DNA from: Rhodospirillaceae bacterium
GTDB lineage: Bacteria > Pseudomonadota > Alphaproteobacteria > CACIAM-22H2
Direction of reading: 5' to 3'
Assembly (NCBI GenBank): GCA_022843945.1
Contig: JALHMR010000004.1
Location: 124,001-188,000 of the forward strand
DNA length: 64,000 bases
The position numbers were made by a program, and so were the translations under genes. Positions 2,662-61,008 of this stretch are shown one piece after another. The notes beneath the pieces were generated by a model. It saw nothing but the letters and a program-made list of their open reading frames with translations. It searched no databases and was not told the DNA's origin. How positions within the stretch are numbered: the stretch's first letter is position 1; the number at the start of each line of letters is the position of its first letter.

Positions 2662-2670
2662 GCGCTCTAA

Positions 2671-3396: not shown

Positions 3397-3418
3397 CGTG
3401 CGAAGCTACCATGCCCAG

Positions 3419-3430: not shown

Positions 3431-3511
3431 TAGAAGATAGGCGTTGACTCGGGGTTTGGCCGGGGCCTAGCCTCGGGCTCTGGTCCGGTTCGCGAGGCTC
3501 GGGGAGGAGCG

Positions 3512-3796: not shown

Positions 3797-3798
3797 CC

Positions 3799-6437: not shown

Positions 6438-6438
6438 C

Positions 6439-7164: not shown

Positions 7165-7186
7165 TAGGATCGAAAGAAAGATAACT

Positions 7187-7227
7187 GGGAGGACAAAGAC
7201 ATGACCGAGCCCCGCGCCGCTCCTTGA
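7187..7227 (+). promoter_or_regulatory. candidate leader peptide with strong ribosome site
   Basis: A textbook Shine-Dalgarno GGGAGG (7187-7192) lies 8 nt before an ATG at 7201. That ATG opens only an 8-codon reading frame, MTEPRAAP, ending at TGA 7225-7227. It lies in the only sizeable gap between the TauE gene and the ABC substrate-binding protein, and an inverted repeat begins 6 nt after its stop. It could be a leader peptide for attenuation or coupling, or the relic of a lost gene start. Confidence 0.4.
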
Positions 7228-7233
7228 GCGTTC

Positions 7234-7264
7234 AGAATTTCTAACGGCTGGCGTTAGTAATTCT
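7234..7264. promoter_or_regulatory. 31-nt inverted repeat, operator or RNA hairpin
   Basis: The arms AGAATTTCTAACG and CGTTAGTAATTCT are 13 nt each, pair at 12 positions and enclose a 5-nt loop (GCTGG). They are AT-rich in otherwise GC-rich DNA. No uridine tract follows, so an ordinary terminator is unlikely. It could be an operator dyad for a second regulator of the transporter genes, or an RNA structure that adjusts expression or stability of the downstream substrate-binding protein message. Confidence 0.5.
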
Positions 7265-7335
7265 TACGCCCGCCGCCCGCAGTTTTTGCGTATGTCCGCG
7301 GTCTCTACCCCGGACCTGAGCAGGAGACAAAGGCG

Positions 7336-8352: not shown

Positions 8353-8377
8353 GCGAAAGGCGGCACGGATACCGGTC

Positions 8378-44925: not shown

Positions 44926-46512
44926 ATGACCAAGAAATGGGCGGCTGTTGCCGTCGTGGCGGCGCTTGCCGCCGGTCTGGCCGCATCGGCCGAGGCCAAG
45001 ACGCTACGTATGTCGGTGGCCGGTGACGCGAGCACCATGGACCCGCATGCCAACAACGCCGGCAATACCACACTGATCCTGAAGCAGATCTATGAGCCGC
45101 TGATCGACCGCAACCAGAAGCTGGAGAAGGTCCCGGGCCTGGCCCTCGAATGGTCGAATCCGGAGCCCAATACCTGGCGTTTCAAGCTCCGCCAGGGCGT
45201 CAAGTTCCACGACGGCTCGCCCTTCACCGCCGATGACGTGGTCTTCTCGATCACCCGCGCGCTGGCGCCGACCTCGGATTTCAAGCTCTACGTGAATGGC
45301 ATCAAGGAAGCCAAGAAGGTCGACGACTTCACGGTCGATCTGATCACCACCGCGCCGAACCCGATCGTGCCCGATGGGCTGCCGCGCGTACACATCATGA
45401 GCAAGGCCTGGGCGGAAAAGAACAGCGTTCAACAGCCGCAGAATTTCCGCCAGAAAGAAGAGACCTTCGCCGTGCGCAATGCCAACGGCACGGGTCCCTT
45501 CAGCCTGCGCAGCCGCGAGCCTGATTCCAAGACCGTGCTGGCGCGCAACACCGCCTGGTGGGGCTGGAGCCAGCAGGGGGCGGGCAACCTGACCGAAATC
45601 GTGTTCACGCCGATCAACAACGACGCCACGCGCTTCAGCGCGCTGATGTCGGGTGAGATCGACTTCGTGCTCGATCCGCCGGTGCAGAATCTCGAGGCGC
45701 TCAAGCGCAATCCGAAGATCAAGGTTCTGGAAGGCCCCGAGAACCGCACGCTCTACCTGGCGATGGACCAGAAGCGCGACGAGCTTCTCTACTCCAACGT
45801 CAAGGGCAAGAATCCGTTCAAGGACGTGCGCGTTCGCCAGGCGGTCTATCATGCGATTGACGCGGAGGCGATCAAGACCCGTGTGATGCGCGGCCAATCG
45901 GTGCCCACGGGCTCGATGTGGACGCAATTCGTCAACGGCTATAGCGAAGGGAACGACAAGCGTCTGCCTCTGGACCGCGACAAGGCCAAGAAGCTGCTCG
46001 CCGAGGCCGGCTATCCTGACGGCTTCGAGGTGACGTTCGACTGCCCCAACAACCGCTACATCAACGACGAGCAGATCTGCATCGCTATCGCCGGCATGCT
46101 GGCGCAGGTGGGCATCAAGGCGACCGTTGCGGCCCAGCCGTTCACGCAATTCCTGCCCAAGGTTCAGCGCACCGAGACCAGCTTCTATCTGCTGGCCTGG
46201 GGCGTGCCGACCTTCGATGCGCTTTATACCTTGCAGGCGTTGATCCGCAGCAAGGGTGAGGGTGCCGATGGCAGCTTCAACTACGGCAACTTCTCGAACG
46301 CCAAGATCGACGCGCTGATCGACGGCGTGAAGAGCGAGCTCGATCTCAACAAGCGGCGGAACATGATGATCGAGGCCCTCAAGCTGCATAACGACGAGGT
46401 CGGCAATATTCCGATCCACCACCAGATGATCCCCTGGGCGATGGCCTCGAACGTCTTCGCCCACCACCAGGCGGAGAATCAGCTCGACGCCAAGTGGGTC
46501 AAAGTCGACTGA
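44926..46512 (+). CDS. family 5 (DppA/OppA-type) ABC substrate-binding protein
   Basis: This 528-residue periplasmic peptide- or opine-type binding protein has a Sec signal peptide (AAVAVVAALAAGLAASAEAK). The SBP_bac_5 hallmarks are STMDPHANNAGNTTLILKQIYEPL, LRQGVKFHDGSPFTADDVVFS and FKDVRVRQAVYHAID. Ligands in the family range from di- and oligopeptides to glutathione and opines. The ATG at 44926 has GAGGGAGA upstream. It leads a complete operon with two permeases and two ATPases. A strong hairpin separates it from the permease gene. Confidence 0.94.
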   Translation: MTKKWAAVAVVAALAAGLAASAEAKTLRMSVAGDASTMDPHANNAGNTTLILKQIYEPLIDRNQKLEKVPGLALEWSNPEPNTWRFKLRQGVKFHDGSPFTADDVVFSITRALAPTSDFKLYVNGIKEAKKVDDFTVDLITTAPNPIVPDGLPRVHIMSKAWAEKNSVQQPQNFRQKEETFAVRNANGTGPFSLRSREPDSKTVLARNTAWWGWSQQGAGNLTEIVFTPINNDATRFSALMSGEIDFVLDPPVQNLEALKRNPKIKVLEGPENRTLYLAMDQKRDELLYSNVKGKNPFKDVRVRQAVYHAIDAEAIKTRVMRGQSVPTGSMWTQFVNGYSEGNDKRLPLDRDKAKKLLAEAGYPDGFEVTFDCPNNRYINDEQICIAIAGMLAQVGIKATVAAQPFTQFLPKVQRTETSFYLLAWGVPTFDALYTLQALIRSKGEGADGSFNYGNFSNAKIDALIDGVKSELDLNKRRNMMIEALKLHNDEVGNIPIHHQMIPWAMASNVFAHHQAENQLDAKWVKVD

Positions 46513-46522
46513 ACGTGCCCTA

Positions 46523-46549
46523 GGCCGGCCCGTCTTTGACGGGTCGGCC
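46523..46549 (+). other. intergenic stem-loop after the binding-protein gene
   Basis: GGCCGGCCCGTC, loop TTT and GACGGGTCGGCC form a 12-bp stem with one G-T wobble, located 10 nt after the binding-protein stop. No T-run follows. Such hairpins commonly protect the abundant binding-protein mRNA segment and lower downstream permease expression. Confidence 0.7.
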
Positions 46550-46560
46550 ATTCCGTTCCG

Positions 46561-47550
46561 ATGATTGCCTATATCGTCCAGCGTTTCCTGCAATCCGTCC
46601 TCGTCATGGCGGCGGTCGGCTTCGTCGCCTTCTCGCTGTTCGCCTATGTTGGCGATCCGATCACCATCATGCTCGGCCAGGACTACAACGAGACCGAGCG
46701 CGCCCGGCTCGCCGCCCAGCTCGGCCTGGACCGGCCGTTCTATGTGCAGTTCTTCAAGTTCGCCGTGAACGCGATGCAGGGCGATTTCGGCATCTCCTAC
46801 CGGCTCGCCCGGCCGGTCAGCGCCGTGATCCGCGAGCGCCTGCCGGCCACTCTCGAGCTCTCGCTGGTCGCGGCGATCCTGGCCCTGGCCGTCGGCCTGC
46901 CGATGGGGGTGTACACGGGCCTGCGCCGCGATTCCTGGCTGTCGCGCGTCTTCCTCACCGTTTCGCTGATCGGTGTCTCCCTTCCGACTTTCCTGATCGG
47001 CATCCTGTTGATCCTGGTCTTCGCCGTCATTCTCGGTTGGCTGCCTTCCTTCGGGCGCGGCCAGACGGTGATGCTCGGTTGGTGGTCGACCGGCTTTCTC
47101 ACCGCCTCGGGGCTGAAGGCTCTGATTCTACCCTCGATCACGCTGTGCCTGTTCCAGCTCACGCTGATCCTGCGCCTCGTGCGCTCGGAGATGCTGGAGG
47201 TGCTGCGCACCGACTACATCAAGTTCGCACGCGCCCGCGGCCTGCGGGACCGCGCCGTGCATTTCCGGCACGCCCTGCGCAACACGCTCGTGCCGGTCAT
47301 CACCATCGCCGGCCTGCAGCTCGGCGCCATCATCGCCTTCGCCATCATCACCGAGACGGTGTTCCAGTGGCCGGGCATGGGGCTGCTCTTCATCCAGTCG
47401 GTGTCGGCGACCGACATCCCGGTGATGGCCGCCTATCTCTGCCTGATCTCGTTCGTCTTCGTGGTGATCAACTTCATCGTCGACCTGCTCTATTACGTGG
47501 TCGATCCGCGCCTGCGCATCGACCGGGGAGCCGTGGGCGGCCATGGCTGA
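46561..47550 (+). CDS. DppB/OppB-type ABC transporter permease
   Basis: This 329-residue inner-membrane permease has six helices. The family N-terminus is MIAYIVQRFLQSVLVMAAVGF, and LGLDRPFYVQFFKFAVNAMQGDFGISY is the periplasmic gate region. The EAA coupling loop is YIKFARARGLRDRAVHFRHALRNTLVPVI (residues about 220-248). It overlaps the next permease gene by eight bases. Confidence 0.95.
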   Translation: MIAYIVQRFLQSVLVMAAVGFVAFSLFAYVGDPITIMLGQDYNETERARLAAQLGLDRPFYVQFFKFAVNAMQGDFGISYRLARPVSAVIRERLPATLELSLVAAILALAVGLPMGVYTGLRRDSWLSRVFLTVSLIGVSLPTFLIGILLILVFAVILGWLPSFGRGQTVMLGWWSTGFLTASGLKALILPSITLCLFQLTLILRLVRSEMLEVLRTDYIKFARARGLRDRAVHFRHALRNTLVPVITIAGLQLGAIIAFAIITETVFQWPGMGLLFIQSVSATDIPVMAAYLCLISFVFVVINFIVDLLYYVVDPRLRIDRGAVGGHG

Positions 47551-48505
47551 GGCGACGGAATTCTCAGCCCGCCAGGGCGTGGCCACGCCGCCGCCCGGCG
47601 TGCTGAAGCGCGCCTTCGATTCCGACGTCTTCTACAGCTTCCGCCATTCGCCGATCACCATGCTGGCGGCGGCGATCACGCTGCTCGGCTTCATCGGGGC
47701 GATCTTCGCGCCCTGGCTGGCCACCCAGAATCCCTTCGATCTGCGCACCCTCAACCTCATGGATGCGTCGCTGCCGCCCGCCTGGATCGAGGGCGGCGAA
47801 GCCAAGTACCTGTTCGGCACGGACAACCAGGGCCGCGATGTTTTCTCGACTATCCTCTACGGCTCGCGCGTCTCGCTGTTGGTCGGGGTCGGCTCGGTCC
47901 TGCTGGCGCTGGTGCTCGGTGTCGGCCTGGGTCTGCTGAGCGGCTATGTCGGCGGCACGATCGACGCCTTCATCATGCGCGTGGCCGACGTGCAGCTGAG
48001 CTTCCCGGCCATCCTCATCGCCCTGCTGATCGACGGCATCACCCGCGCCATCCTGCCGCGCGAGGCGCATGACGCGGCGGCGGTCTACGTGCTGATCCTG
48101 TCGATCGGTGCATCCGGCTGGGTGCAGTACGCGCGCACCGTGCGTGGCTCCACCATGGTCGAGAAGAACAAGGAATACGTCCAGGCCGCCCGCGTCATCG
48201 GCCTGCATCCCGTGGCCATCATGCTGCGCCACGTCCTGCCCAATGTCATGGGGCCGGTGCTGGTCATCGCCACGATCCATCTGGCGGTCGCCATCATCAC
48301 CGAGGCGACGCTGTCCTTCCTCGGCGTCGGCGTGCCGCCGACCCAGCCGTCGCTCGGCACGCTGATCCGCATCGGCAACAACTTCCTGTTCTCCGGTGAA
48401 TGGTGGATCACGGTGTTCCCGGGTGCTGCCCTGGTGATCATGGTCCTGGCGGTCAATCTCCTGGGCGACTGGCTGCGTGACGCCCTGAACCCGAAGCTGA
48501 GATGA
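47543..48505 (+). CDS. DppC/OppC-type ABC transporter permease
   Basis: This 320-residue permease has the N-terminal OppC segment (FYSFRHSPITMLAAAITLLGFI), the FGTDNQGRDVFSTILYGSRVSL periplasmic motif and the EAA loop EYVQAARVIGLHPVAIMLRHVLPN. It pairs with the preceding DppB-type subunit as a heterodimeric channel. It overlaps the following ATPase gene by an ATGA. Confidence 0.95.
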   Translation: MAEATEFSARQGVATPPPGVLKRAFDSDVFYSFRHSPITMLAAAITLLGFIGAIFAPWLATQNPFDLRTLNLMDASLPPAWIEGGEAKYLFGTDNQGRDVFSTILYGSRVSLLVGVGSVLLALVLGVGLGLLSGYVGGTIDAFIMRVADVQLSFPAILIALLIDGITRAILPREAHDAAAVYVLILSIGASGWVQYARTVRGSTMVEKNKEYVQAARVIGLHPVAIMLRHVLPNVMGPVLVIATIHLAVAIITEATLSFLGVGVPPTQPSLGTLIRIGNNFLFSGEWWITVFPGAALVIMVLAVNLLGDWLRDALNPKLR

Positions 48506-49512
48506 GCGCACCCGCCACCCGTGCCAACCGGCCGCTGCTCGACGTGCGCAACCTGCACGTCGAGTTTCCCACCCGGCGCGGGCGGCTGGTCGCGGTCGAC
48601 GACGTGTCGTTCCATATCGACGCGGGCGAGGTCCTCGGCGTGGTCGGCGAGTCCGGCGCCGGCAAGTCGCTGACCGGGGCGGCGATCATCGGGCTCCTGG
48701 AGCCGCCGGGACGGATCGCCGGCGGTGAGGTGCTCCTCGACGGCAAGCGCATCGACAACCTGCCGGCCGAGCAGCTGCGCCGCATCCGCGGCCGCCAGAT
48801 CGGCGCGGTGTTCCAGGATCCGCTGACCTCGCTCGACCCGCTGTTCACGGTCGGCCAGCAGCTGACCGAGACCATCACCACCCATCTCGATCTCTCGGAA
48901 AGCGAGGCTCGCAACCGTGCGATCGAATTGCTGCGCGAGGTCGGCATCCCCGGCGCCGAGCGCCGCATCGATCACTACCCGCACCAGTTCTCCGGCGGCA
49001 TGCGCCAGCGGGTGGTCATCGCGCTGGCGCTGTGCGCCCAACCGCGCCTGATCATCGCCGATGAGCCGACCACCGCCCTCGATGTCTCGATCCAGGCGCA
49101 GATCATCACGCTGCTCAAGCGGCTGTGCCGCGATCACGGCGCTGCCGTGATGCTGGTGACGCACGACATGGGCGTGATCGCCGAGACCGCCGACCGCGTC
49201 GCGGTCATGTATGCCGGCCGCATCGCCGAGATCGGGCCGGTCGCCGACGTCATCCAGCGGCCCAGGCATCCTTATACGGTGGGCCTGATGGGCTCGATCC
49301 CCAAGCTCGACCGCGCGGTGCCGCGCCTGGTCCAGATCGAGGGCTCCATGCCGCGGCTCAACGCCATCCCGACCGGCTGTGCCTTCAATCCGCGTTGCCC
49401 GAAGGTCTTCGAGCGCTGCCGCATCGAGCGGCCCGAGCTCTTCCCGGTCGGTGGCAGCGCCGCGGCCTGCTGGCTGCATGCGACCACGCTGGCGGAGGCC
49501 GCCCGTGGCTGA
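48502..49512 (+). CDS. DppD/OppD-type ABC ATPase
   Basis: This 336-residue ATPase has Walker [12 protein letters not shown], signature [15 protein letters not shown], Walker [14 protein letters not shown] and a C-terminal oligopeptide-transporter extension. That extension carries cysteines in [14 protein letters not shown], the region that holds a [4Fe-4S] cluster in some DppD proteins. It forms a heterodimer with the next ATPase. Confidence 0.95.
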
Positions 49513-50572
49513 CGGCGCCGCCCCGGCCCGCGACCCGAACGCAGGGCCGTTGCTCTCGGTGCGCGACATCGCGCGCAGCTTCGACGTCTCGCGGCCCTGG
49601 CTGGCCCGCATGCTGGAAGGCCAGCCGCGCCTGCTGCTCAAGGCGGTCGACGGCGTGTCGTTCGACATTCCCCGCGGCGAGACGCTGTCGCTGGTTGGCG
49701 AGTCCGGCTGCGGCAAGTCGACCGTGGCGCGGCTGGTGGTCGGGCTCTACCGGCCGTCGCGCGGCACGATCAATTTCGACGGGGTGAACGTCACGGCGCT
49801 GCGCACCCGCGCCGCGCTCAAGCCGGTTCGCCGCCGCTTCCAGATGATCTTCCAGGATCCCTACGCCAGCCTCAATCCGCGCTGGCGGGTGCGCGACATC
49901 ATCGCCGAACCGATCCGCGCCCACCGCCTGATGAAGGACAACCAGGAGATCGGCCGGCGGGTCGACGAGCTCCTGCGCCTGGTCAGGCTCTCGCCGGCCG
50001 ACGGCGAAAAGTACCCGCACGAATTCTCCGGCGGCCAGCGCCAGCGCATCTCGATCGCCCGCGCCCTGTCGAGCAATCCCGATTTCCTGGTCTGCGACGA
50101 GCCGACCTCGGCACTCGACGTCTCGGTGCAGGCGCAGATCCTCAACCTGATGAAGGACCTGCAGCGCGAGCTCGGCCTGACCTACCTGTTCATCTCGCAT
50201 AACCTGGCCGTGGTCTTCCACATCTCGGACCGCGTCGGCGTCATGTATCTCGGCCGCATCGTCGAGCTCGCCGACGTCAAGGCGCTGTTTGCCAGCCCGC
50301 AGCATCCCTACACGCGGCTGCTGCTCGACGCGATCCCGGACCTGGAGATGAGCGGTCGCGGCCGCACGCCGGTGGCGGGCGAGGTGCCCAATCCCCTCGA
50401 TCCCCCCACGGGGTGCGCCTTCCATCCGCGCTGCCCATGGGCGAACGAGCGCTGTCGGCGTGAGACTCCGGTGATGAAGCCGGTACCGGGCGGCGCCTCG
50501 TCTTCAGGGACAGTGGCCGCCTGCCACGCGGTGGAAGAAGGCCGGATCGGCCCCGGACCGACGCAGAAGTAA
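49505..50572 (+). CDS. DppF/OppF-type ABC ATPase
   Basis: This 355-residue ATPase has Walker [16 protein letters not shown]-loop [14 protein letters not shown], signature [15 protein letters not shown], Walker [13 protein letters not shown] and the C-terminal [14 protein letters not shown] extension. It starts with GTG at 49505 inside the end of the preceding ATPase gene, so the operon is translationally coupled throughout. It is the last operon gene; base composition drops sharply just afterwards. It could also serve the ATPase-less transporter at 58-63 kb. Confidence 0.94.
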
Positions 50573-50586
50573 CGGCAACTTGAGAC

Positions 50587-51261
50587 ATGGCAGCACTCGG
50601 AATTGCTTCAAGCTGCGAAGCCTTGCTTTTCGACTTCGATGGCGTCCTTGTTGAATCTGTGGACATAAAGCGCAGAGCTTTCCGCACTCTGTTCGAATCT
50701 CAGAATAAGCATCTGCCCGAAATTGAAGCGCTGGACGAGCGGCTTGGGGGTATCAGCCGCCTCATAAAGATAGAAATGGTTTATCAGGAAATATTGAAGC
50801 AGCCCGCGTCTAAACGGAAGATCCATGCTTTAGCGGGCCGCTACGGAGCACTCGTTGTCGATGGCGTTATCAAGTGTCCGGCCGTTGCTGGTCTTGAGCG
50901 AATAGTAGGCGAGTTTTACTCAATTGTTCCTCTAGGAGTGATATCGGGAACTCCCAGCGAGGAGCTTGACCACATCCTGCGTGAACGCGGCCTTTCCCGT
51001 TTTTTTGCAGCCATACACGGCAGTCCGCCGGGCAAGGCAGAAACGCTACTTAATCTTCTTTCCACGCACGGCTGGACCCGTGAAAACGTTGTTTACGTGG
51101 GCGATGCCTGGTCTGATTTCGAGGCGGCAGCGCAGACCGGTATCAATTTCATCGGGCGCGTGCCGCATGGAAAAGCGAGTCCGTTTCCGCAGGAAACGTC
51201 GCTTATAGGGGACCTCACCGAGCTGCCCGCAGCGATCGAAGCGGTCCTGGGCGGCCGTTAA
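50587..51261 (+). CDS. HAD-superfamily hydrolase (beta-phosphoglucomutase-like)
   Basis: This 224-residue HAD phosphatase or phosphotransferase has motif I in LLFDFDGVLVES (nucleophile Asp17 and Asp19), motif II threonine in GVISGTPSEEL, a lysine in PPGKAETLL and motif IV in VYVGDAWSDFEAA. The helical cap lies between residues about 28 and 95. It probably dephosphorylates a small phospho-sugar or related metabolite. It is the first gene of a lower-GC island: the 60-base row at 50641 is 50% G+C against 65% for the row at 50041. It is convergent with the kinase gene, sharing stop-codon bases. Confidence 0.85.
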   Translation: MAALGIASSCEALLFDFDGVLVESVDIKRRAFRTLFESQNKHLPEIEALDERLGGISRLIKIEMVYQEILKQPASKRKIHALAGRYGALVVDGVIKCPAVAGLERIVGEFYSIVPLGVISGTPSEELDHILRERGLSRFFAAIHGSPPGKAETLLNLLSTHGWTRENVVYVGDAWSDFEAAAQTGINFIGRVPHGKASPFPQETSLIGDLTELPAAIEAVLGGR

Positions 51262-52208
51262 GCGACTGTGCGGAATTCCCTGTCGGGGCTCGTAACGCTC
51301 TGTGTTGTAGCCCAATGAGGACCACCCAGCGACGAAATGGCCTTTGCGGCCGCGCGGCTGCCGGCGGCGGCTGCATCCACCAAATTATGACCGGCGCCCA
51401 ATGCTAGTGCGACGCCGGCCGCCACTGCATCTCCCGCTCCGGAAACATCGACCGGCTGGAGGTTCTCGGCAGGGAAGAATTGCTGCTCTACGGCGCCCTC
51501 CGACGATAGAACCATCCCACCGGCGCCAAGTTTGAGCAGGATGTTGCGAAGCTTGTACCGCGCGCGCAGGCCGCGAATGAGTGCGGCGGGTGCATCATCC
51601 GGGGATGCGTCGCCTAAGGCTCGCGCCGCCTCATACCTATTGGGGAGCACGACGGTCGCTTCCGAGAAATCGCTGTAGTCTTCTTTGCGGGAATCCACGA
51701 CCACGGGGGCGTTCCTGAGTAAGGCGAGCATAGATATCTCGAGAATGATCGCGCGCGTGACGACACCCTTGCAGTAGTCGCTGATGACGACTGCATCAAA
51801 TGCTAGCTCTCTCAGTTTCTCAATAAGCTGTGAGTAAGCTTCTGGCTCCGGTCCCTGATCCGGCTCCTGGTCCATGCGCAGAAGCATATGCTTATCGCTC
51901 ACCACCCGGGTCTTCGTAACCGTCGCTTGTGTCTTGGAGCGGATAACCGGCTGAGTGTTTACGCCACTGTCATTCAGCAGGCCTAATAGCATCCCGCCAG
52001 CTGCATCGGCGCCGCATACGCCTGCCAGGATCGCTCGGCCCCCGCCGTGCTGAATGTTTCGTGCAACATTGGCCGCCCCACCTGGACGGTGCCATGCGCG
52101 CTGGCGCCGATGGACAAGCACCGGTGCGTCAGAGGCTATTCGGTCGACTACCCCGTCGACATACTCGTCCAGCATTAGGTCACCAACGACCAGCACTGAG
52201 CGCGGCAT
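51258..52208 (-). CDS. PfkB-family kinase resembling the HldE/RfaE sugar-kinase domain
   Basis: This 316-residue ribokinase-fold kinase has an HldE-like N-terminus SVLVVGDLMLDEYVDGVVDR, the glycine pair GGAANVARNIQHGGG and VVISDYCKGVV. The catalytic anion-hole motif is DVSGAGDAVAAGVALALG. HldE domain I phosphorylates D-glycero-D-manno-heptose 7-phosphate; the nucleotidyltransferase domain of HldE is absent here. A heptose or other phospho-sugar is therefore a guess. The start MPRSVLVVGD at 52208 was chosen, overlapping the upstream FAD-gene end by 29 nt; longer in-frame starts exist (for example 52250). Confidence 0.8.
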   Translation of the reverse strand: MPRSVLVVGDLMLDEYVDGVVDRIASDAPVLVHRRQRAWHRPGGAANVARNIQHGGGRAILAGVCGADAAGGMLLGLLNDSGVNTQPVIRSKTQATVTKTRVVSDKHMLLRMDQEPDQGPEPEAYSQLIEKLRELAFDAVVISDYCKGVVTRAIILEISMLALLRNAPVVVDSRKEDYSDFSEATVVLPNRYEAARALGDASPDDAPAALIRGLRARYKLRNILLKLGAGGMVLSSEGAVEQQFFPAENLQPVDVSGAGDAVAAGVALALGAGHNLVDAAAAGSRAAAKAISSLGGPHWATTQSVTSPDREFRTVA

Positions 52209-53424
52209 GCGTCTTCCCCTTGGACTGCGCGCTGAACTCAGCGCCGTCATAGTGTTGCCATTCGAAGCGATCCCACGGACATGGCGCCACACGGGGTGTC
52301 TCGACATCCCCGGGCCGATGAAGAACGCTCGATATGCCCGCTGGCTTAGGCAATAGGGCATGAACCTTCTCCGCAAGCCGAGGAGTAAGGCCGAACTTTG
52401 CCGGCCATACCGTCATGACATTCGTCTCGGCGACGACCGTTGCATCGTCCGGCCGCGCGCTGCTCCTCGCGGCTGGCTCGAAGCGGCTTATGAAATAGGT
52501 CGACCAGAGAAACCTGTGTGGCTGGAAGCCGGGTATGACCTCCTGGAGGAGCTCACCCGCACCTCGAATCCTTTCACTACCGCTTCGGTAACTACGGTCT
52601 TCGGAGATATCGCCTCCGAGAAGCCAGACCGGTTGGTCCAGTTTGCTAGTGACGGCCGTAATGGCAACCTGCTGGCGTCCCTTCCGGAAATAGTTGCCGT
52701 AGACTTCGGGCAGAGCGCCTGCCAACAGCACCATATCGAGAGGCCGCAGCTGGATCGGCAGCGGGTTGAGATTGAGACGGTGACGCAAGAAGGGGATACC
52801 GGCCCCAGCGGCGAGAATGACGGTACGAGGCAGGATCCTCACCCTCCTGCGCGAAAGGTGTACCTCTGTAACCGCCCCGTCCCGGCCCTTGAGGAGGGCC
52901 AGTTCTGCCGGGTCATATAGCCAGATGCGCTCCCTGTAATCCTCAGCCAACGCCGAGAGCACCGACGGAACATCGAATATCGGCTCATCCACTCGATACG
53001 AGTAGCTTGCCACCGGTATACCAGCCCCACTGTCAACGACGGGCTCTGCAGACCGGCTACAGCCTGTCTGCTTGGCGTAGGCCTCGATGGCGGCGTCTAA
53101 CGGCTCGTCCGACCAGAAGCGGTTTGTCCGCGAGCGTAACGAAACGCCGCGTAGGTCGAGCGGGCCATCACCCGCCAAGCAGTGGCGCCACACCGCCGGC
53201 ATGGCGGCAAGATGTTGTCCTAGTTTCGCGGGAGCATGCGCACAAGTGTATTTCAAGCCGCTATGGATGACGCCTTGGCATGCGATCGTCTGGCCAGCGC
53301 CGATGGAGTGCGCTTCGAGAGCGATGACCGAATAGCCGGCCTTGCTAAGAGAATTCAAAAGCCACAGGCCGGAGATGCCGCATCCGAAGATGAGAACATC
53401 GCACTCGTAGGAAGCGGAATTCAT
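52180..53424 (-). CDS. DAO-family FAD-dependent oxidoreductase
   Basis: This 414-residue flavoenzyme has the FAD dinucleotide motif DVLIFGCGISGLWLLNSLSK and the DAO/GlpD-like segment IGAGQTIACQGVIHSGLKYT. The substrate domain includes PLDMVLLAGALPEVYG. It resembles glycerol-3-phosphate dehydrogenase and L-2-hydroxyglutarate oxidase relatives, so the substrate is likely a hydroxyacid, polyol phosphate or amine. Base composition is lower in GC than the flanks. It is probably co-transcribed with the overlapping sugar kinase and divergent from the MFS gene. Confidence 0.78.
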   Translation of the reverse strand: MNSASYECDVLIFGCGISGLWLLNSLSKAGYSVIALEAHSIGAGQTIACQGVIHSGLKYTCAHAPAKLGQHLAAMPAVWRHCLAGDGPLDLRGVSLRSRTNRFWSDEPLDAAIEAYAKQTGCSRSAEPVVDSGAGIPVASYSYRVDEPIFDVPSVLSALAEDYRERIWLYDPAELALLKGRDGAVTEVHLSRRRVRILPRTVILAAGAGIPFLRHRLNLNPLPIQLRPLDMVLLAGALPEVYGNYFRKGRQQVAITAVTSKLDQPVWLLGGDISEDRSYRSGSERIRGAGELLQEVIPGFQPHRFLWSTYFISRFEPAARSSARPDDATVVAETNVMTVWPAKFGLTPRLAEKVHALLPKPAGISSVLHRPGDVETPRVAPCPWDRFEWQHYDGAEFSAQSKGKTHAALSAGRW

Positions 53425-53518
53425 AGTGGATCAGGAAAATTCATCGGCGGCACTACTAACGTAATTGGATATTTGCGTTGATTGACAGCTCGTATAGGTT
53501 GTAGGGTGCGGCTTGTAA

Positions 53519-54835
53519 TTGATTTGTCACAATCGTGTCAACGAGACTTGTTTGAATTCTTCGTTATCTGACTCTCCGCCCTCCACCACAGCCGAATTCA
53601 AGCTAGGCCCCCTCCGTATCGACCTCTGGAGCGTCCGGGAGTCAAATCCACGCTGGCTCTGGGTCGGTCGGCTCGCCGTCTTTCTTGCTGAATCAGTGCA
53701 GGACGTCGCACTGATCTGGATTGCCTGGGAGCTCACCCAGTCTTCCGCGGCGATGGCTGCCATGACGCTGGCAAGCAGAGTTCCGCTCTGGCTTTTCGGC
53801 TTGGTCGGTGGCATCTGCGCGGACGGCGGTTCTCCTCGACGAATCGTTCTCGCGGCTAACCTGATCGCTGCGGTCGCGGCACTGGCCGTCCCCCTGCTGC
53901 ACAGCCTTTCGCTCATGAACGTCGTGCTTCTTGGCTGTGCCGCCTTCACCATAGGGATCGCCCGAGCTTTCGAAGCCCCGGCGCTATACGCACTCATCAA
54001 GGCTTTGGTTGAGGACAGCAGATCCCAAGCCCTAAACGGCATTACCGATACAAGTAAGCGTACGGCGCGTCTGGTCGGGCCAATGCTGGCCAGCGCGGTG
54101 AAAGCCGTCGCGCCTGTCATGTGGTGCTACGCAGCCGTCGGAGCGGGCTTCCTGCTGATGGCCGCAGCGGTCACGCGGTTCCGGCTCCGCGAAATCGAAG
54201 ACCGGCCGAAGCGCTCGAGCATCGTCTCCGATATTCGTGCGGCGGTCCGAGTGGTGCAGTCACGCCAAATCCTGCTGTTCATCATTCTTATGGATGTGCT
54301 TTTTAGCCTTACCTATGGCGCTTGCTATTGGGTCTTCGTGCCGCGCCTGGTGATCGACATCTTGGGGGGCGGAACGCAAGGTTACGCGTTCGTGGCATCA
54401 GCATTTGCGGTCGGGGGGCTGACCGGAGGGTTTGCCGGGACTGCGTTTCGAGTCGGCAACAAGCTTTGGCTGGCGGCCGGAGGACTGATCGTTGCGGGGC
54501 TGACGTTTGGCCTGATAGCACTTCTTCCGAATGTCTCTGCCGTGGCTGCAGGCGCTGCTTTGATCGGGGCTTCCCTCTCAGTACAAAGCATTTCTCTACA
54601 GAGTGTGCTCCATGAGCGCTGCCCCACCGAGCACCTAGGCAAGCTGTACTCATCTTGGCGCTTCGGAAATGAGATCGCTGGCAGTCTGGGCGTGTTTGCC
54701 GCGGGCCTGATCGTGGACAATTGGGGTGTCTCTGGACCGATGCTGGCGGTCGCAGTCTATTCACAGCTCGTGGTCCTGTACTGCCTGCTGTCGGCATTGA
54801 AGGCTCCCTTGCCTGCAACGCAGGCGGCACCTTGA
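53519..54835 (+). CDS. MFS transporter (EntS/MFS_3-like), uncertain start
   Basis: This membrane protein of about 438 residues has roughly 12 hydrophobic helices and the MFS loop GGICADGGSPRRIVLAANLIAA. The second-half repeat SVLHERCPTEHLGKLYSSWRFGNE is typical of MFS_3/EntS-like exporters. No ATG lies near the start of homology. TTG at 53519 opens the frame and TTG at 53552 is an alternative, both with weak ribosome sites, so either an unusual start or 5' damage is possible. The stop overlaps the next ATG (TGATG). It may export or import the compound handled by the island enzymes. Confidence 0.75.
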   Translation: MICHNRVNETCLNSSLSDSPPSTTAEFKLGPLRIDLWSVRESNPRWLWVGRLAVFLAESVQDVALIWIAWELTQSSAAMAAMTLASRVPLWLFGLVGGICADGGSPRRIVLAANLIAAVAALAVPLLHSLSLMNVVLLGCAAFTIGIARAFEAPALYALIKALVEDSRSQALNGITDTSKRTARLVGPMLASAVKAVAPVMWCYAAVGAGFLLMAAAVTRFRLREIEDRPKRSSIVSDIRAAVRVVQSRQILLFIILMDVLFSLTYGACYWVFVPRLVIDILGGGTQGYAFVASAFAVGGLTGGFAGTAFRVGNKLWLAAGGLIVAGLTFGLIALLPNVSAVAAGAALIGASLSVQSISLQSVLHERCPTEHLGKLYSSWRFGNEIAGSLGVFAAGLIVDNWGVSGPMLAVAVYSQLVVLYCLLSALKAPLPATQAAP

Positions 54836-55530
54836 TGGTCTGCACTTCATCGGACGAGCAACGGCTGGCCATCTTCGACTGTGATGGCACTCTGGTGGAT
54901 AGCCAGGAGGGCATTGTCGCCGCGATGAATAGTGCCTTCGAGACAGTCGGCGCTTCTCCACCAGCGGCAGATGACATCCTCCGTGTCGTCGGACTGCCTC
55001 TTGCAGAGTGCTTACGCAGGCTTTCACCCTCGCTCTCTGACAACCAGCAGCGCATCATGGCGGAAACCTACAATCGGTCGCGAACCGAGCAGCGGCGGCG
55101 TGGAGACCTTCTCGAGCGGGTCTTTGTGGGTGTTGCCAGCACACTGACGGCTATGAAAGGGGATGGCTGGAAGTTAGCCGTTGCGACTGGAAAGTCATCC
55201 GCGAGCGTCGCCCTGGTCCTGGAGCGTCACCAGCTTAGCGGGTTATTCGATGCCGTCGCCTCTGGTGACCAAGGGCGCGGCAAACCGCATCCCGACATGA
55301 TCCACCAAATCCGCTCGAAGATTGACGCACCAAGCCATCGAACCATGATGATCGGCGATACAACATTCGACATGAGGATGGCTGTTGCGGCCGGCGTGCA
55401 TCCCATCGGGGTGAACTGGGGCTATCACGCGTCAGGGGAGCTTAAACTTGCCGGAGCTCACAGGGTTGTCTTGGCTTTCGAGGACATACCACGGGCGGCG
55501 GTTGAGTGTTTGGCGCCTGGTTGCCAGTGA
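54835..55530 (+). CDS. HAD hydrolase, phosphoglycolate phosphatase-like
   Basis: This 231-residue HAD phosphatase is of the Gph type. Motif I is IFDCDGTLVDSQEG (Asp nucleophile near residue 17), motif II lies in LAVATGKSSASV, the lysine is in GRGKPHPDMI and motif IV is MMIGDTTFDMRMAVAAG. It is likely a small-metabolite phosphatase. The ATG at 54835 overlaps the MFS stop by one base. It is the last gene of the lower-GC island, 44 nt before the end of the convergent mannose-1-phosphate guanylyltransferase gene. Confidence 0.87.
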   Translation: MVCTSSDEQRLAIFDCDGTLVDSQEGIVAAMNSAFETVGASPPAADDILRVVGLPLAECLRRLSPSLSDNQQRIMAETYNRSRTEQRRRGDLLERVFVGVASTLTAMKGDGWKLAVATGKSSASVALVLERHQLSGLFDAVASGDQGRGKPHPDMIHQIRSKIDAPSHRTMMIGDTTFDMRMAVAAGVHPIGVNWGYHASGELKLAGAHRVVLAFEDIPRAAVECLAPGCQ

Positions 55531-55574
55531 GGCATCGGCCCCTCATCAAGCATTCGGCCAACGTAATCCGTCAG

Positions 55575-57002
55575 TCAGCTGCGCCCGTAAGTGTCCTCGA
55601 TGCGGACAATGTCGTCCTCGCCGAGATAGCCGCCGGACTGCACCTCGATCAGGTGCAGGTCGTCGCTGCCGATATTCTCCAGCCGGTGGACCGTGCCGAC
55701 CGGGATGTAGGTCGACTGGTTCTCGCGCAGCACGAGAAAGTCCTCGCCGCGCGTGACGCGGGCCGTGCCTTGCACCACCACCCAGTGCTCGGCGCGCTGG
55801 GCATGCTTCTGCAGCGAGAGCTTGGCACCCGGCTTGACCACGATGCGCTTCACCTGGAAGCGCGCCCCGGCATCGACGCCGGTATAGCTGCCCCACGGAC
55901 GATGGACCGTCTTGTGGATCGTCGCCTCGCTGCGGCCCTTGGCCTTGAGCGTGTCGACGATCTTCTTGACGTCCTGGGCGCGATCCTTGGCTGCCGCCAG
56001 CACCACGTCGTCGGTGACCACGACCACGATGTTGTCGAGGCCGACCGTCGCCAGCAGCATGCCGTTGGTGGTCCGGAGGTAGGCGTTCTTGGTGTCGTGG
56101 GCGATGACGTCGCCCACCGTGACGTTGCCGTCGGCATCGCGCTCGCCCACATCCCAGAGCGCCGACCAGGCGCCGACGTCGTTCCAGCCGAGATCGGCGG
56201 GCACCACCGCGGCGCGCTTGGTCTTCTCCATCACGGCGTAGTCGATGGAGATCGACGGCGAGGCGGAAAAGGCATCCTTGTCCAGGCGCAGGAAGTCGAG
56301 ATCGCCCGCCGCGCCCTCGATCGCCTTGCTGGCTGCCTCGGCGACCTTGGGCTGGTGTGCCTTGAGCTCGTCGATATAGAGCCGCGCCGGGAACAGGAAC
56401 ATGCCGGAGTTCCACGACCAGATGCCTTCGGCGAGATAGGTCTTGGCGGTGGCCAAGTCGGGCTTCTCGACAAAGCGCTCGATGCTGTAGGTGTCGTTCG
56501 CGCCGTCGAGAGCCGGTCCGCGCTTGATGTAGCCGTAGCCGGTCTCGGGTGTCTTGGGCACCAGGCCGAAGGCGACGAGACGCCCTTTGCGCGCGGCGGC
56601 GGCGGCCGTCTCGATCGCGCGCCCGAAGACCGCGACGTCACGAATAATGTGATCGGAGGGCAGGACGAGCAGCAGCGCGTCGGGATCCTCGCGCAGGATG
56701 AGGATGGCGGCGGCGGCGACCGCCGGTGCCGTGTTGCGCGCCGCCGGTTCGAGGACGATGGCGCGCGGCTTCATGTCGAGCTGGCGCAGCTGCTCGGCGA
56801 TGATGAAGCGGTGGTCGTCATTGCACACCACGACGGGGGCGGCGAAGCCGTTGCCCTTGACCCGGCCCAGCGTGTCCTGGAGCAGGCTCTTTTCGCTGAC
56901 CAGCGGCAGGAGCTGCTTGGGATAGAGCTCGCGCGACAGGGGCCAGAGCCGGGTGCCCGCACCCCCCGACAGAATCACCGGCCAGATCGAACCTTTTGCC
57001 AT
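55575..57002 (-). CDS. manC: mannose-1-phosphate guanylyltransferase/mannose-6-phosphate isomerase (ManC/AlgA type)
   Basis: This 475-residue bifunctional type II enzyme makes GDP-mannose for polysaccharides. The N-terminal nucleotidyltransferase carries ILSGGAGTRLWPLSRELYPKQ (pyrophosphorylase signature, split residues 10-30) and LLLVLPSDHIIRD, with FVEKPDLATAKTYL as the sugar-binding loop. The C-terminal cupin-type isomerase domain carries VHRPWGSYTGVD, QKHAQRAEHWVVVQG and YIPVGTVHRLEN. Length is normal. The gene has normal high GC, unlike the island it borders, so it belongs to the resident genome. Confidence 0.95.
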   Translation of the reverse strand: MAKGSIWPVILSGGAGTRLWPLSRELYPKQLLPLVSEKSLLQDTLGRVKGNGFAAPVVVCNDDHRFIIAEQLRQLDMKPRAIVLEPAARNTAPAVAAAAILILREDPDALLLVLPSDHIIRDVAVFGRAIETAAAAARKGRLVAFGLVPKTPETGYGYIKRGPALDGANDTYSIERFVEKPDLATAKTYLAEGIWSWNSGMFLFPARLYIDELKAHQPKVAEAASKAIEGAAGDLDFLRLDKDAFSASPSISIDYAVMEKTKRAAVVPADLGWNDVGAWSALWDVGERDADGNVTVGDVIAHDTKNAYLRTTNGMLLATVGLDNIVVVVTDDVVLAAAKDRAQDVKKIVDTLKAKGRSEATIHKTVHRPWGSYTGVDAGARFQVKRIVVKPGAKLSLQKHAQRAEHWVVVQGTARVTRGEDFLVLRENQSTYIPVGTVHRLENIGSDDLHLIEVQSGGYLGEDDIVRIEDTYGRS

Positions 57003-57190
57003 CGTCTTCCGTACCTTGCGAACCGCTTCAACGCAACCGGCGGCCCCCGATCATTCCCTCATCTTGAGGCGAAATGATGGTGCGGGGCTAGGCGGGCGCC
57101 CAGGGAGGGTCGGGATATTCCGGCCTACGCCGATCGTTCCGCCGCCTTACCGTTTGGACGCTGGGCGCTCTTTGCCGCTAGGATGACGTC

Positions 57191-58081
57191 GTGATTCTGG
57201 TTTTCGGCTCGATCAACGTGGATCTCGTCTTCGCCCTGCCGTCCCTGCCGCGGCCGGGCGAGACGGTGCTGGGCACGGGCTATCGCTCGGTTCCTGGCGG
57301 CAAGGGCGCCAACCAGGCCGTGGCCGCCGCCCGGGACGGGGCCAAGGTCGCCATGGTCGGGCGGGTCGGCCGCGACCCGTTCGGCGCGATGATGCGCGAG
57401 AGCCTGCGCGAGGCCGGTGTCGATGCCGCGGGCGTGCTCGACAGCGAAGCGCCGACCGGCTGTGCCGCCGTGTGCGTCGACGCCGAGGGCCGCAACCTGA
57501 TCGCCGTGGCCGGCGGCGCCAACCTGCTGGCCCGGGCCGCCAACGTGCCGGACGCGCTGCTTGGGCCGGAGACCACCGTTCTGCTGCAGATGGAAGTGCC
57601 CGTCGCCGAGGTCCAGGCGATCGCCCGCCGCGCCAAGGCGAAGGGGGCGCGGGTCGTGCTCAATCTCGGGCCGGCGCTGAAGCTGCCGCTGGACACGTTC
57701 CGCGACATCGACGTGCTGGTGGCCAACGAGATCGAGGCGACGACGCTGCAGGCCGGAGACGCCTCGGCGCTGGCGCAGGCCCTGTCGACGACCGTCATCG
57801 TCACCCTGGGCGAGAAAGGGGCGGTCGCCGCAACCCCGCAGGAAGGCTGGACGATCGGCGCGCTGCCGGTCAAGGCGGTGGACACCACGGCGGCCGGCGA
57901 CAGCTTCTGCGGCGCGCTGGGAGCCGCACTCGATCGGGGTGCCACGCTGCCCGAGGCGCTGCGCCGGGCCAGTGTCGCGGCCGGCCTCGCCTGCCTGGTG
58001 CCCGGCGCCCAGCCGAGCCTGCCGGCGACCCGGGACATCGACAAGCGGCTGAACGACTTAGCGCCGGCGCGCCGTCTCTGA
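57191..58081 (+). CDS. rbsK: ribokinase
   Basis: This 296-residue PfkB-family sugar kinase opens MILVFGSINVDLVFALPSLP. Diagnostic ribokinase features are VPGGKGANQAVAAARDGAKV, MVGRVGRDPFG, the potassium-site region and the catalytic DTTAAGDSFCGALGAAL. It phosphorylates D-ribose or a related pentose at O5 with ATP. It starts with GTG at 57191. No ribose transporter is beside it. Its end overlaps the end of the convergent permease gene by 24 nt. Confidence 0.92.
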   Translation: MILVFGSINVDLVFALPSLPRPGETVLGTGYRSVPGGKGANQAVAAARDGAKVAMVGRVGRDPFGAMMRESLREAGVDAAGVLDSEAPTGCAAVCVDAEGRNLIAVAGGANLLARAANVPDALLGPETTVLLQMEVPVAEVQAIARRAKAKGARVVLNLGPALKLPLDTFRDIDVLVANEIEATTLQAGDASALAQALSTTVIVTLGEKGAVAATPQEGWTIGALPVKAVDTTAAGDSFCGALGAALDRGATLPEALRRASVAAGLACLVPGAQPSLPATRDIDKRLNDLAPARRL

Positions 58082-58930
58082 GCGCGCGCGCGGATCGAGA
58101 TGCGCCTGCAACGCGTCGCCCAGCAGGTTGCAGGCGGCCACCGTCAATAAAATCAACAGGCCGGGCCAGATCGCCAGCATCGGCGCCGTGCCGATCACCT
58201 CCTGGGCGTTGGTCAGCATGTTGCCCCAGCTCGGCACCGGCGGCTGGATGCCCAAGCCTAAGAAACTCAACACCGATTCGAAGAGGATGACGCCGCCCAC
58301 GGCGAGCGTGGTGGCGACGATGATCGGCGTCACCGCATTGGGCAGGATATGGACGAACATGATGCGTGGCGCGCTGGCTCCTAAGGCCATGGCGGCGCGC
58401 ACGAAATCCTGGCCGAGCAGGCTTAAGGTGGCGCCGCGCACCAGCCGCGCCACGGTCGTCCAGCCGACCAGGGTGATGATCAGGATGATCCTGTAAAGGC
58501 TGGCCGATTCCGACTGCGCCAGGGAGGTGAGACCGAGCTTGGAGAAATCGACAGCGGCCAGCACGATGAGCAGCGGCAGAAGCGGCAGCGCAATCACCCC
58601 ATCCGTCAGCCGCATCAGAATCCCGTCGAGCCGGCCGCCGAAATACCCGGCGAGCAGACCCACGAGAGTGCCGACGAGCGCAGCCGCGAGAGCCGCGACG
58701 AGACCCACAGAGAGCGAGACACGTCCGCCATACAGCAGCCGCAGGAGCACGTCGCGTCCCAGGTCGTCGGTGCCCAACGGGTGCGACCACGAAGGAGATT
58801 CAAAACGCGCCAGCAGATCGACCTCCTCGGGATTGTGACCGAGCCCCCAGGCGATCAGCGGAGCGGCCAGCGACAGCACCGCCAGCGTCGCGATCACCGC
58901 CGCCGCCGCCCAGGTCAGCCGGCGGTTCAT
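58058..58930 (-). CDS. DppC-type ABC transporter permease
   Basis: This 290-residue permease has six helices. The HPLGTDDLGRDVLLRLLYGGRVSL periplasmic motif and the EAA loop DFVRAAMALGASAPRIMFVHILPNAV (residues about 165-190) mark it as a DppC/OppC homologue. It overlaps the upstream DppB-type gene by an ATGA. No ATPase gene follows; the next gene is the convergent ribokinase. It must therefore borrow ATPases from elsewhere or be paired with distant genes. Confidence 0.93.
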   Translation of the reverse strand: MNRRLTWAAAAVIATLAVLSLAAPLIAWGLGHNPEEVDLLARFESPSWSHPLGTDDLGRDVLLRLLYGGRVSLSVGLVAALAAALVGTLVGLLAGYFGGRLDGILMRLTDGVIALPLLPLLIVLAAVDFSKLGLTSLAQSESASLYRIILIITLVGWTTVARLVRGATLSLLGQDFVRAAMALGASAPRIMFVHILPNAVTPIIVATTLAVGGVILFESVLSFLGLGIQPPVPSWGNMLTNAQEVIGTAPMLAIWPGLLILLTVAACNLLGDALQAHLDPRARSETARRR

Positions 58931-59907
58931 CGCGGCCGCTCCAGGCCGCCCCATTCCGCACCGCCAAAGCCGATGCGCGGGTCGAGCCAGGCGTAGGCGA
59001 GATCCGCCGCCAGATTGCCGATCAGGGTAAGCAGGGTGGCGAAGAGCAGCCCGACCAGCGCCAGGTTGTAGTCGTTGCCCATCACCGCGTCGAAGATCAG
59101 CTTGCCCATGCCGGGATAGGCGAACATCGTCTCGGTGACCAGCGCCCCCGAGAACAGCCCGCCGAAGCCCAGCGCCACGATGGTGGTCACCGGGATCATG
59201 GCGTTGGGCAGCGCGTGGCGCACCAGCACGCGCGGCAGGCTTGCGCCCTTGGCGTGGGCGGTGCGCACCCAGTCCTGGCGCATGGCCTCGAGCATCGCCG
59301 CGCGGGTGTAGCGCGCATAGATGCCGGCCTCGACCACGGCCAGCGTCGCCACCGGCAGAATGAGATGCCGCAAGCCCTCCCAGAAGCCGCCGCTGGTGGC
59401 GATGCCGCCCGCCGGCAGCCAGCCCAGGGTCACGGCGAAGACCAGGATGAAGATCAGCGCCAGCCAGAAGGTCGGCGTCGACACCGCCAGGAAGGCATAG
59501 AGATTGACCAGGCCGTCGACCAGGCCGCCGGGCCGCGCGGCGCCGATCACGCCCAGCGGAATGCCGATGGCCAGGGCCAGGAGAAAGGCGGCGGTCATCA
59601 GCGCCGCGGTGTTGGCCAGGCGCGGGCCGATGACCTCGAGCACCGGCCGGGAGAAGCCGCGGCTGTAGCCGAAATCGCCGGCGAGCGCGTCACCCGCCCA
59701 GGCGGCGTAGCGCGCCAGCAGCGGCCGGTCGAGGCCGTAGACTTCGCGCAGGCGCTGGGCGTCCTCGGCGGTGAGGCGTGGGTTGGAGTTGATCATCAGG
59801 TCGATGGGATCGCCCGGCATCAGCCCGATCAGCCCGTAGACCACGAAGGACATCGCGGCGAGCACGACGAGGCTCTGCAGCGCGCGATGGACGAGGAAGC
59901 GGATCAT
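58927..59907 (-). CDS. DppB-type ABC transporter permease
   Basis: This 326-residue permease starts MIRFLVHRALQSLVVLAAMSFVV and contains YGLDRPLLARYAAWAGDALAGDFGYS and the EAA loop DWVRTAHAKGASLPRVLVRHALPNAM. The ATG at 59907 was chosen from the family N-terminus. It pairs with the overlapping DppC-type gene. Its binding-protein gene (61009-62667, same strand) is separated from it by about 1.1 kb holding an opposite-strand gene. Confidence 0.93.
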   Translation of the reverse strand: MIRFLVHRALQSLVVLAAMSFVVYGLIGLMPGDPIDLMINSNPRLTAEDAQRLREVYGLDRPLLARYAAWAGDALAGDFGYSRGFSRPVLEVIGPRLANTAALMTAAFLLALAIGIPLGVIGAARPGGLVDGLVNLYAFLAVSTPTFWLALIFILVFAVTLGWLPAGGIATSGGFWEGLRHLILPVATLAVVEAGIYARYTRAAMLEAMRQDWVRTAHAKGASLPRVLVRHALPNAMIPVTTIVALGFGGLFSGALVTETMFAYPGMGKLIFDAVMGNDYNLALVGLLFATLLTLIGNLAADLAYAWLDPRIGFGGAEWGGLERPR

Positions 59908-60366
59908 CGCGTCAACATAGCCTTCGCGGCGTTGATCCGCCAATTGCGGCAATCAAGACGCGCATCCGTCGGCGGTACGCGTTTATGGTACAGATGCGAT
60001 ACATTTGGGATAGGTTGAGATACGGGTGGTTCGCAAATTGCCGTATGCGTTCAACGGTCTGCAAGCCCCCTTCGGAGATGCCGAATGAAAGACACAAAGC
60101 CACTGTCTCGCCGTAATGCCACGAAAACCGGGCCTAAGTAGCATGCCGGCGGCTGGCGTACCGGGCAAAAAGCAGCGTCCCGGCGGGCCGCCGACCCGCC
60201 GGAGACGAGGAACAGGAGTTCACCATGTCAAAGAGCCAACCCAGACATATGGAAGACAATTTGGCTATTACAAGCCCCTGAGCAGCAGCGGGAAGACGGT
60301 GCTGAGCGTCACCGGCAGTTCGGCTCGTGCTAGTCTGCCCGCCGCGACTCGTTGCCGGGGGCGCGA
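59908..60366. other. 459-nt interval without a convincing gene
   Basis: The interval lies between the DppB-type permease start and a plus-strand unknown gene. It holds an 18-codon frame MKDTKPLSRRNATKTGPK (60085-60141), a GC-rich hairpin with arms CCGGCGGG and CCCGCCGG (60180-60202, extended by CGTC/GACG), and a second 18-codon frame at 60225-60281 with a good ribosome site. An 89-codon frame over 60116-60385 has no recognisable homology. The interval probably belongs to inserted or decayed DNA. No promoter could be assigned confidently. Confidence 0.5.
60225..60281 (+). other. 18-codon reading frame with good ribosome site
   Basis: ATG at 60225 is preceded by AGGAACAGGAG and encodes MSKSQPRHMEDNLAITSP before TGA. 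The start resembles small basic bacterial proteins that begin MxKxQxR, but the rest does not continue that pattern, so it may be a frameshifted remnant. It follows a stable hairpin by 22 nt. Coding status is uncertain. Confidence 0.3.
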
Positions 60367-60999
60367 ATGTTTAATCCGAGTCTGATGATCGCGCTGGGGA
60401 CGGTCTTCGGTGCCGTGTTTGTGCTCGTTAGCGCACCATGGCTCGGCGTCCTTTCCAAAGACGGCGCATGGGTCGGCCTCGGCGGGTGGGCGCAGGCTAT
60501 CGGCTCTGTGATCGCCGTTCTCGCTGCTGCCTATGTGCCATGGCGCATCGCTAAAGAGCGTGCCGCCGCCGCCGAACAAGAACGACGTTTCAAAGCGCGC
60601 AGCCTTGCAATCGCGCTTTATCCAGAATTGACGGAGCTTAAGGAAAAGCTACGCGCGGCTACCACGGCCCTCGATCTTATCGGAAGCGACTTACCGCTCA
60701 GCGTTTTTGATCCTCGCACTAAGCTAGCTGTTGAAATACCGCCGGTGATTACCGGGTGCATTTTTGAGTTCTACCTCTTACGTGAAGTAGGGGACGAAAT
60801 TCAGCAGGTGCTGGCATTCGTCCGGCAGTTCAATCGAATGGTTGCACAATGGGACAACACGAAAGTTCCCAAGAAGGCGAGCGTGCAGGAGGCGCGGCAG
60901 TTTATGTACGAAACTCTGGAGCCTCATCTGAGACAAGCCCGGGAGCGCTGCAACGGCGCGATCAAGGGACTTGCCCCCATTCACGACCAACCCGCCTAG
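60367..60999 (+). CDS. membrane-anchored hypothetical protein
   Basis: This 210-residue protein has two N-terminal transmembrane helices (about residues 5-24 and 37-56, including GWAQAIGSVIAVLAAAYVPW). A basic, coiled-coil-prone segment (RIAKERAAAAEQERRFKAR) follows, then a cytosolic helical domain. No known enzymatic motif is visible. The overall plan of two helices plus a helical cytosolic part resembles many accessory-region hypotheticals. Base composition is lower than the flanks (row 60601 is 52% G+C). It lies in opposite orientation within an ABC transporter gene set, suggesting insertion. Confidence 0.7.
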   Translation: MFNPSLMIALGTVFGAVFVLVSAPWLGVLSKDGAWVGLGGWAQAIGSVIAVLAAAYVPWRIAKERAAAAEQERRFKARSLAIALYPELTELKEKLRAATTALDLIGSDLPLSVFDPRTKLAVEIPPVITGCIFEFYLLREVGDEIQQVLAFVRQFNRMVAQWDNTKVPKKASVQEARQFMYETLEPHLRQARERCNGAIKGLAPIHDQPA

Positions 61000-61008
61000 C
61001 CTAATCAG

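Follow-up and report, generated by a model that had tools for sequence, protein, structure and literature searches.

A laterally acquired five-gene island in a Rhodospirillaceae genome places a variant of the orphan PA4991 flavoenzyme family beside an HldE-like kinase

Background

The Pseudomonas aeruginosa flavoenzyme PA4991, of the GR2 family, had a substrate that was still unknown at the time of its structure paper (PDB 5ez7; PMC4741190). Those parts of the paper on which we draw place His53, Arg316, and Lys345 near the flavin, report assays without glycerol-3-phosphate dehydrogenase or amino-acid oxidase activity, and give the authors' expectation of a substrate bearing a phosphate or carboxylate. 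The same parts describe PA4991 and PA4992 as one operon that is required for P. aeruginosa growth in cystic-fibrosis sputum (PMC4741190), and the P. aeruginosa core cluster begins at PA4996, a few genes past this pair, according to the portion of a second paper that covers it (PMC8005017). Our search of titles and abstract starts, which leaves subscription journals mostly uncovered, found no literature link between PA4991/PA4992 and heptose. Here, we describe a PA4991-type flavoenzyme gene (DAO) that lies next to a gene for a kinase resembling domain I of HldE (KIN), within a five-gene island in a 64-kb stretch of DNA (hereafter the window) from a Rhodospirillaceae bacterium, and we compare this locus with the relatives of the flavoenzyme and their gene neighborhoods.

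The genome studied is a draft of 5.38 Mb in 82 contigs, and the window is positions 124,001 to 188,000 of contig JALHMR010000004.1 (G000:C4:124001-188000 in our numbering). An earlier annotation made from the letters of the window and its open reading frames (hereafter the sequence-only reading) had proposed that the island is a transferred pathway that phosphorylates, oxidizes, dephosphorylates, and exports one compound.

Results and discussion

Gene content and layout

The island and its two native flanking genes are as follows (window positions; aa, amino acids).

49379..50572, + strand: dppF, left flank, native (ABC_tran + oligo_HPY; protein 86% identical in the same-genus relative G001)
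50573..55574, no strand: acquired island, bounded by the stop codons of dppF and manC, which are convergent (empty site; shift in G+C and in G+C at third codon positions, GC3)
50587..51261, + strand: HAD1, HAD-IA phosphatase-like, 224 aa (Pfam HAD_2, 3.9e-16)
51258..52208, − strand: KIN, PfkB-type kinase like HldE domain I, 316 aa (PfkB, 3e-37; TIGR02198, 249 bits)
52180..53424, − strand: DAO, PA4991-type FAD-dependent oxidoreductase, 414 aa (PF01266; 5ez7, 7.3e-51)
53519..54835, + strand: MFS, carrier of the H+-antiporter/Mef/EntS kind, 438 aa (MFS_3, 4.6e-22; 2A0121, 1e-42; EntS, 5.4e-18)
54835..55530, + strand: HAD2, phosphoglycolate-phosphatase-like HAD protein, 231 aa (HAD_2, 2.2e-35; PGP_bact, 98.5 bits)
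55575..57002, − strand: manC, right flank, native (NTP_transferase + MannoseP_isomer; protein 86% identical in G001)

All five island genes are intact, open frames, and Pfam and NCBIfam agree with the classes that the sequence-only reading had given them (two HAD proteins, an HldE-like kinase, a DAO-family oxidoreductase, and an MFS carrier); none of the proteins scored above an equivalog cut-off in the NCBIfam scan. HAD1 stands tail to tail with KIN-DAO, which in turn is divergent from MFS-HAD2, and the MFS stop and HAD2 start share bases (TGATG at 54833-54837). The listed kinase frame of 372 aa is over-long: PfkB homology begins at residue 60, and 52208, which lies 29 bp within the DAO gene, is the likely start. 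Promoter- and terminator-like sites occur in the island region at chance level only.

Lateral acquisition between dppF and manC

Lateral acquisition of this 5.0-kb segment is well supported by its composition and by the state of the same site in relatives. The island (5,002 bp) has 59.3% G+C against 66.6% for the window, and GC3 values of 0.556, 0.647, 0.677, 0.672, and 0.651 for HAD1, KIN, DAO, MFS, and HAD2, respectively, against 0.84-0.92 in nine flanking genes. In 500-base rows, G+C passes from 0.64-0.72 left of the island to 0.54-0.64 within, while 5-kb windows stepped over the 64 kb (mean 66.6%, standard deviation 1.9%) have their lowest value, 59.4%, at start 50501. Because the shift coincides with gene borders, the sequence-only reading had the borders right, with an abrupt change after dppF and a return at manC; its rows down to 50% G+C were too low, as the 500-base rows inside the island reach 54% at the lowest.

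A border search of window positions 45000-60000 against 23 genomes of the family (own included) gave matches in all. In G001 the aligned flanks are 45 bp apart, and the tails of the genes for ManC (1587-3068, + strand) and DppF (3065-4156, − strand; locus L208) overlap by 4 bp. The dppF-manC junctions fetched from nine relatives (L202-L210) have both genes convergent in 9/9; at 1e-4, no island gene has a match in any of the nine, and none shows an intermediate form; nor did DAO have a match better than 1.1e-5 in 22 family relatives. The segment was inserted between the two stop codons without harm to either gene. The sequence-only reading had named a conserved location in close relatives and a phylogeny uniform with the host as signs against transfer; the nine junctions do not hold the island genes, and in the tree described below KIN lies, on a long and unsure branch, outside the HldE clade of the host family.

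The island does not represent a novel type of mobile element. As had been claimed, no integrase gene is found among its five genes (open reading frame list and Pfam), and no flanking direct or inverted repeats of note are present at its edges. Carriers and close donors were sought in several collections. A tblastn search of DAO against 72,556 plasmid records gave 0 matches, and a family alignment (A1) run against viral contigs yielded 29 pattern stretches but not one relative. Genome contigs scanned with the DAO protein alone gave no relative either, an alignment-based scan found relatives at no more than 30-36% identity (best 80 of 537), and the top match of KIN in 298 other genomes has 40% identity.

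Other changes at and near this site were also seen. Two fully read junctions from other genera carry one or two different genes between dppF and manC, and the site therefore tolerates insertions; the extra genes in genus g5 (L202 1411-3592; L203 about 1917-3119), one of which, judged by eye, may be a threonine dehydratase, indicate that the junction changes repeatedly. Within the window, a second lower-GC stretch (56-61%) lies at 60000-61000, beyond neighboring dpp-type permease genes; it holds a 215-aa frame (60352-60999) with a membrane-like segment at its start.

A PA4991-type flavoenzyme

In a phmmer search of solved structures, DAO matched PA4991 (5ez7) at 7.3e-51 over residues 7-366 of 414, and nothing else better than 7e-4; judged by sequence, the protein described earlier as DAO-family belongs to the PA4991 family. 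The likeness comprises homology over 360 residues, a GxGxxG FAD-binding motif, and a His/Arg/Lys trio, with DAO His54, Arg314, and Lys343 aligning with PA4991 His53, Arg316, and Lys345 (one extra start residue being allowed for in the PDB chain). These three residues are invariant in 109/109 other aligned family members, a count that omits L100, which is itself a copy of the window gene (110 with it included). That DAO is a decayed gene is ruled out by its open frame and kept active-site residues. DAO is 27-33% identical to eleven aligned relatives and forms the longest end branch on the family tree. Family matches are found in 19/397 other genomes of the phylum at 1e-15, 16 of these in one family, and in 12/384 other genomes of the class at 1e-20 (alignment A1).

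Gene neighborhoods of the PA4991 family

To place the flavoenzyme in context, we used the best 80 of 537 relatives from the genome-contig scan (L109-L188), comprising, as sorted by record title, 46 loci from Pseudomonadota and 34 from Planctomycetota/Sumerlaeota; the counts for these two groups below all refer to this set. Neighbor families were assigned by Pfam on representatives, and the names GmhA, GmhB, WaaA, and LpxL are those we take to fit the Pfam matches. The loci were picked by the flavoenzyme alone, and their neighbors are therefore a separate observation.

In all 46 Pseudomonadota loci, an aldo-keto reductase (AKR) of the PA4992 type lies no more than 300 bp from the flavoenzyme on the same strand, and HldE is near it in 38 (within 2.5 kb in 36, abutting on the same strand in 9). 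The same 46 loci contain WaaA (25), LpxL-type lipid A acyltransferase (24), GT9 (22), Kdo/WaaP-type kinase (20), GmhA (16), and GmhB-like (4) genes, and at least one lipopolysaccharide (LPS)-core marker is present in 45, the exception being a 3.4-kb contig (L118). The family is thus linked to HldE and LPS-core genes in these bacteria.

Two smaller sets were counted as well. Among 11 loci from the same class, Alphaproteobacteria (L089-L099), DAO has HldE directly adjoining on its own strand in 7 and is accompanied by AKR in 10; G746, where the gene is split between contigs and an HldE-like frame stands directly upstream of the DAO fragment (L088), would make the HldE count 8/12. In the twelfth genome of the same-class set, G068, the contig ends at the DAO gene. 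A 12-locus phylum set (L042-L053; 11 of other classes plus G068) has HldE in 7 and AKR in 11. AKR adjoins the flavoenzyme in 77/80 of the best-80 loci, and across L109-L188, L089-L099, and L042-L053 the two form a near-obligate pair. One same-class genome, G501 (L097 9569-12313; L084), has a 914-aa DAO frame overlapping the HldE frame, which is a fusion or a wrong start. The neighbors of the Planctomycetota flavoenzyme-AKR pairs had no common theme in the ten proteins scanned, one of them gammaproteobacterial.

The window resembles the HldE-PA4991-PA4992 group of alpha- and gammaproteobacteria in having the flavoenzyme and an HldE-type kinase adjoining on one strand. It differs in gene order, which is reversed (flavoenzyme first), in its single-domain kinase, in the lack of the reductase, and in the two additional HAD genes and carrier.

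A lone kinase resembling HldE domain I

KIN has rfaE_dom_I (TIGR02198) as its nearest NCBIfam model and HldA (4e84, 2.1e-40) as its nearest solved structure, and it carries GAGD and N-x-x-E motifs. In a 73-row tree it does not group with HldE from the host family or from the flavoenzyme loci but branches outside them, with a Shimodaira-Hasegawa-like approximate likelihood ratio (SH-aLRT) support of 92, although on a long branch that flags the placement as unsure. An origin by duplication in the host is rejected, because the host HldE clusters with its family whereas KIN stays apart from it, and recent truncation of an HldE is not favored, KIN being outside the clade of host-family HldE.

The host itself has a canonical hldE beside a GmhA gene on contig C1, as well as a second, divergent bifunctional HldE-like protein on contig C9 (L212, G000:C9:62000-81900, about 5011-11361), and KIN is therefore its third HldE-I-like protein, without domain II. 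GmhA- and GmhB-like frames, as we take them to be, lie near the C9 gene, a possible second (capsule-type) heptose cluster.

A viral contig of 236 kb (IMGVR_UViG_3300045125_000168, L189) encodes a similar lone, single-domain, HldE-like kinase (7983-9011) with 37% identity to KIN. It differs from the window in adjoining methyltransferase, PhoH, and amidase genes and a weak glycosyltransferase match, with no flavoenzyme. Viral carriage of KIN was rejected on this basis, a single distant lone kinase with the other island genes absent from its neighborhood.

Proposed function and alternatives

We tentatively favor a reading, plausible but short of even odds, in which the laterally acquired island contains two enzymes, KIN and DAO, that act in turn on one heptose-type phosphorylated sugar. 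Because both enzyme families are joined in many genomes, the two would share a phosphorylated sugar as substrate, with a heptose or a near analogue as the likeliest candidate. As we infer the substrate, the order of steps, and export, KIN would phosphorylate a heptose-type sugar (with seven carbons, or at least a phosphate), perhaps at the anomeric position by analogy with HldE, and DAO would oxidize an alcohol of the phosphorylated sugar, the conserved Arg314 possibly holding a phosphate or carboxylate. One or both HAD proteins may then remove phosphate, and the MFS carrier may serve to export a product or to detoxify it; that these proteins finish and export the product we infer weakly.

Several observations weigh against this proposal. 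DAO has Asn244 where 109/109 other members have His, and it deviates at fourteen further positions conserved in at least 90% of the family; with these changes at near-invariant sites, its substrate may differ. In distinction from PA4991, it also has a long branch and no PA4992-like partner, either beside it or genome-wide (the best AKR of the genome is at only 2.5e-12). KIN, at 249 bits, is below the curated TIGR02198 cut-off of 345 for heptose-7-phosphate kinase, and lacks the adenylyltransferase domain (domain II). The host already has a canonical hldE-gmhA pair at C1, with both HldE domains over cut-off. An LPS-core marker is present in 2/34 Planctomycetota/Sumerlaeota loci, where AKR is found in 31/34, and the flavoenzyme family is therefore not tied to LPS everywhere; in related gammaproteobacteria, moreover, the linkage is not independent locus by locus. 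Finally, relatives of HAD1, HAD2, and MFS at 1e-6 are in 0/80 of the flavoenzyme loci. From the sequence-only reading, then, transfer stands (empty site, foreign GC3, 0/9 junctions), and the pairing of KIN with DAO has outside support (HldE beside the flavoenzyme family elsewhere), whereas the inclusion of HAD1, HAD2, and MFS, and with it one pathway leading from phosphorylation to export of one compound, goes beyond what the comparisons support.

A somewhat doubtful but real possibility is that the island is an acquired patchwork of genes of mixed origin, in which KIN and DAO alone (or no genes) are functionally linked and MFS-HAD2 is a separate efflux/phosphatase unit. HAD2 is common in the class (61/240 genomes at 1e-40, own included), its top match is the host's own paralogue (51%), and it scores 98.5 bits with PGP_bact (TIGR01449), under the curated cut-off of 180. 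MFS, which resembles Mef/EntS-type exporters (2A0121, 146.8 bits against a cut-off of 319.6), finds no match at 1e-40 among the 209 other genomes of the class. Relatives of HAD1 at E ≤ 1e-18, in 3/209 other class genomes, belong to sugar-nucleotide loci that lack both KIN and DAO, and the island is transcribed in two directions. Mixed origin fits less well with the alike GC3 of KIN, DAO, MFS, and HAD2 (0.65-0.68), with genes that overlap or abut, and with the lack of an intermediate form in the nine junctions.

The loci of the HAD1 relatives, in which CTP_transf_3 cytidylyltransferase genes adjoin 2/3, epimerase genes 2/3, and HpcH aldolase or 2-hydroxyacid dehydrogenase genes lie nearby, also speak for a module for a sugar-acid surface glycan or small molecule. 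HAD1 and DAO would here act on an oxidized (ulosonic or aldonic) sugar that the carrier, resembling small-molecule exporters, would export, with no heptose involved. We regard this as improbable, since the island has no nucleotidyltransferase, aldolase, or glycosyltransferase, and HldE provides the nearest NCBIfam model for KIN. Native genes lost in all relatives and drifted in composition, or an artefact of assembly or binning, for which the single genome available for the species and its draft state might speak, are very improbable and already disfavored, given host genes on both sides within one contig, an estimated contamination of 0.47%, the 4-bp dppF-manC overlap in the same genus, and GC3 far from that of the flanks.

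Returning to KIN and DAO as partners on a heptose-type sugar, we also consider a wider version, speculative and on balance unlikely: PA4991/PA4992 would form an unrecognized redox step in the metabolism of heptose or of the LPS inner core, and the window would hold a mobile, stripped-down offshoot, with the flavoenzyme rewired to a private heptose-type kinase and the oxidized heptose dephosphorylated and exported.

Conclusions

The island is an unusual functional variant around an orphan enzyme family, and it shows that the flavoenzyme is separable from its reductase and can be joined to a heptose-kinase-like enzyme. Of these results, the most useful is the association of PA4991/PA4992 with heptose and LPS-core genes, which gives the pair a specific, testable setting in heptose and inner-core metabolism.

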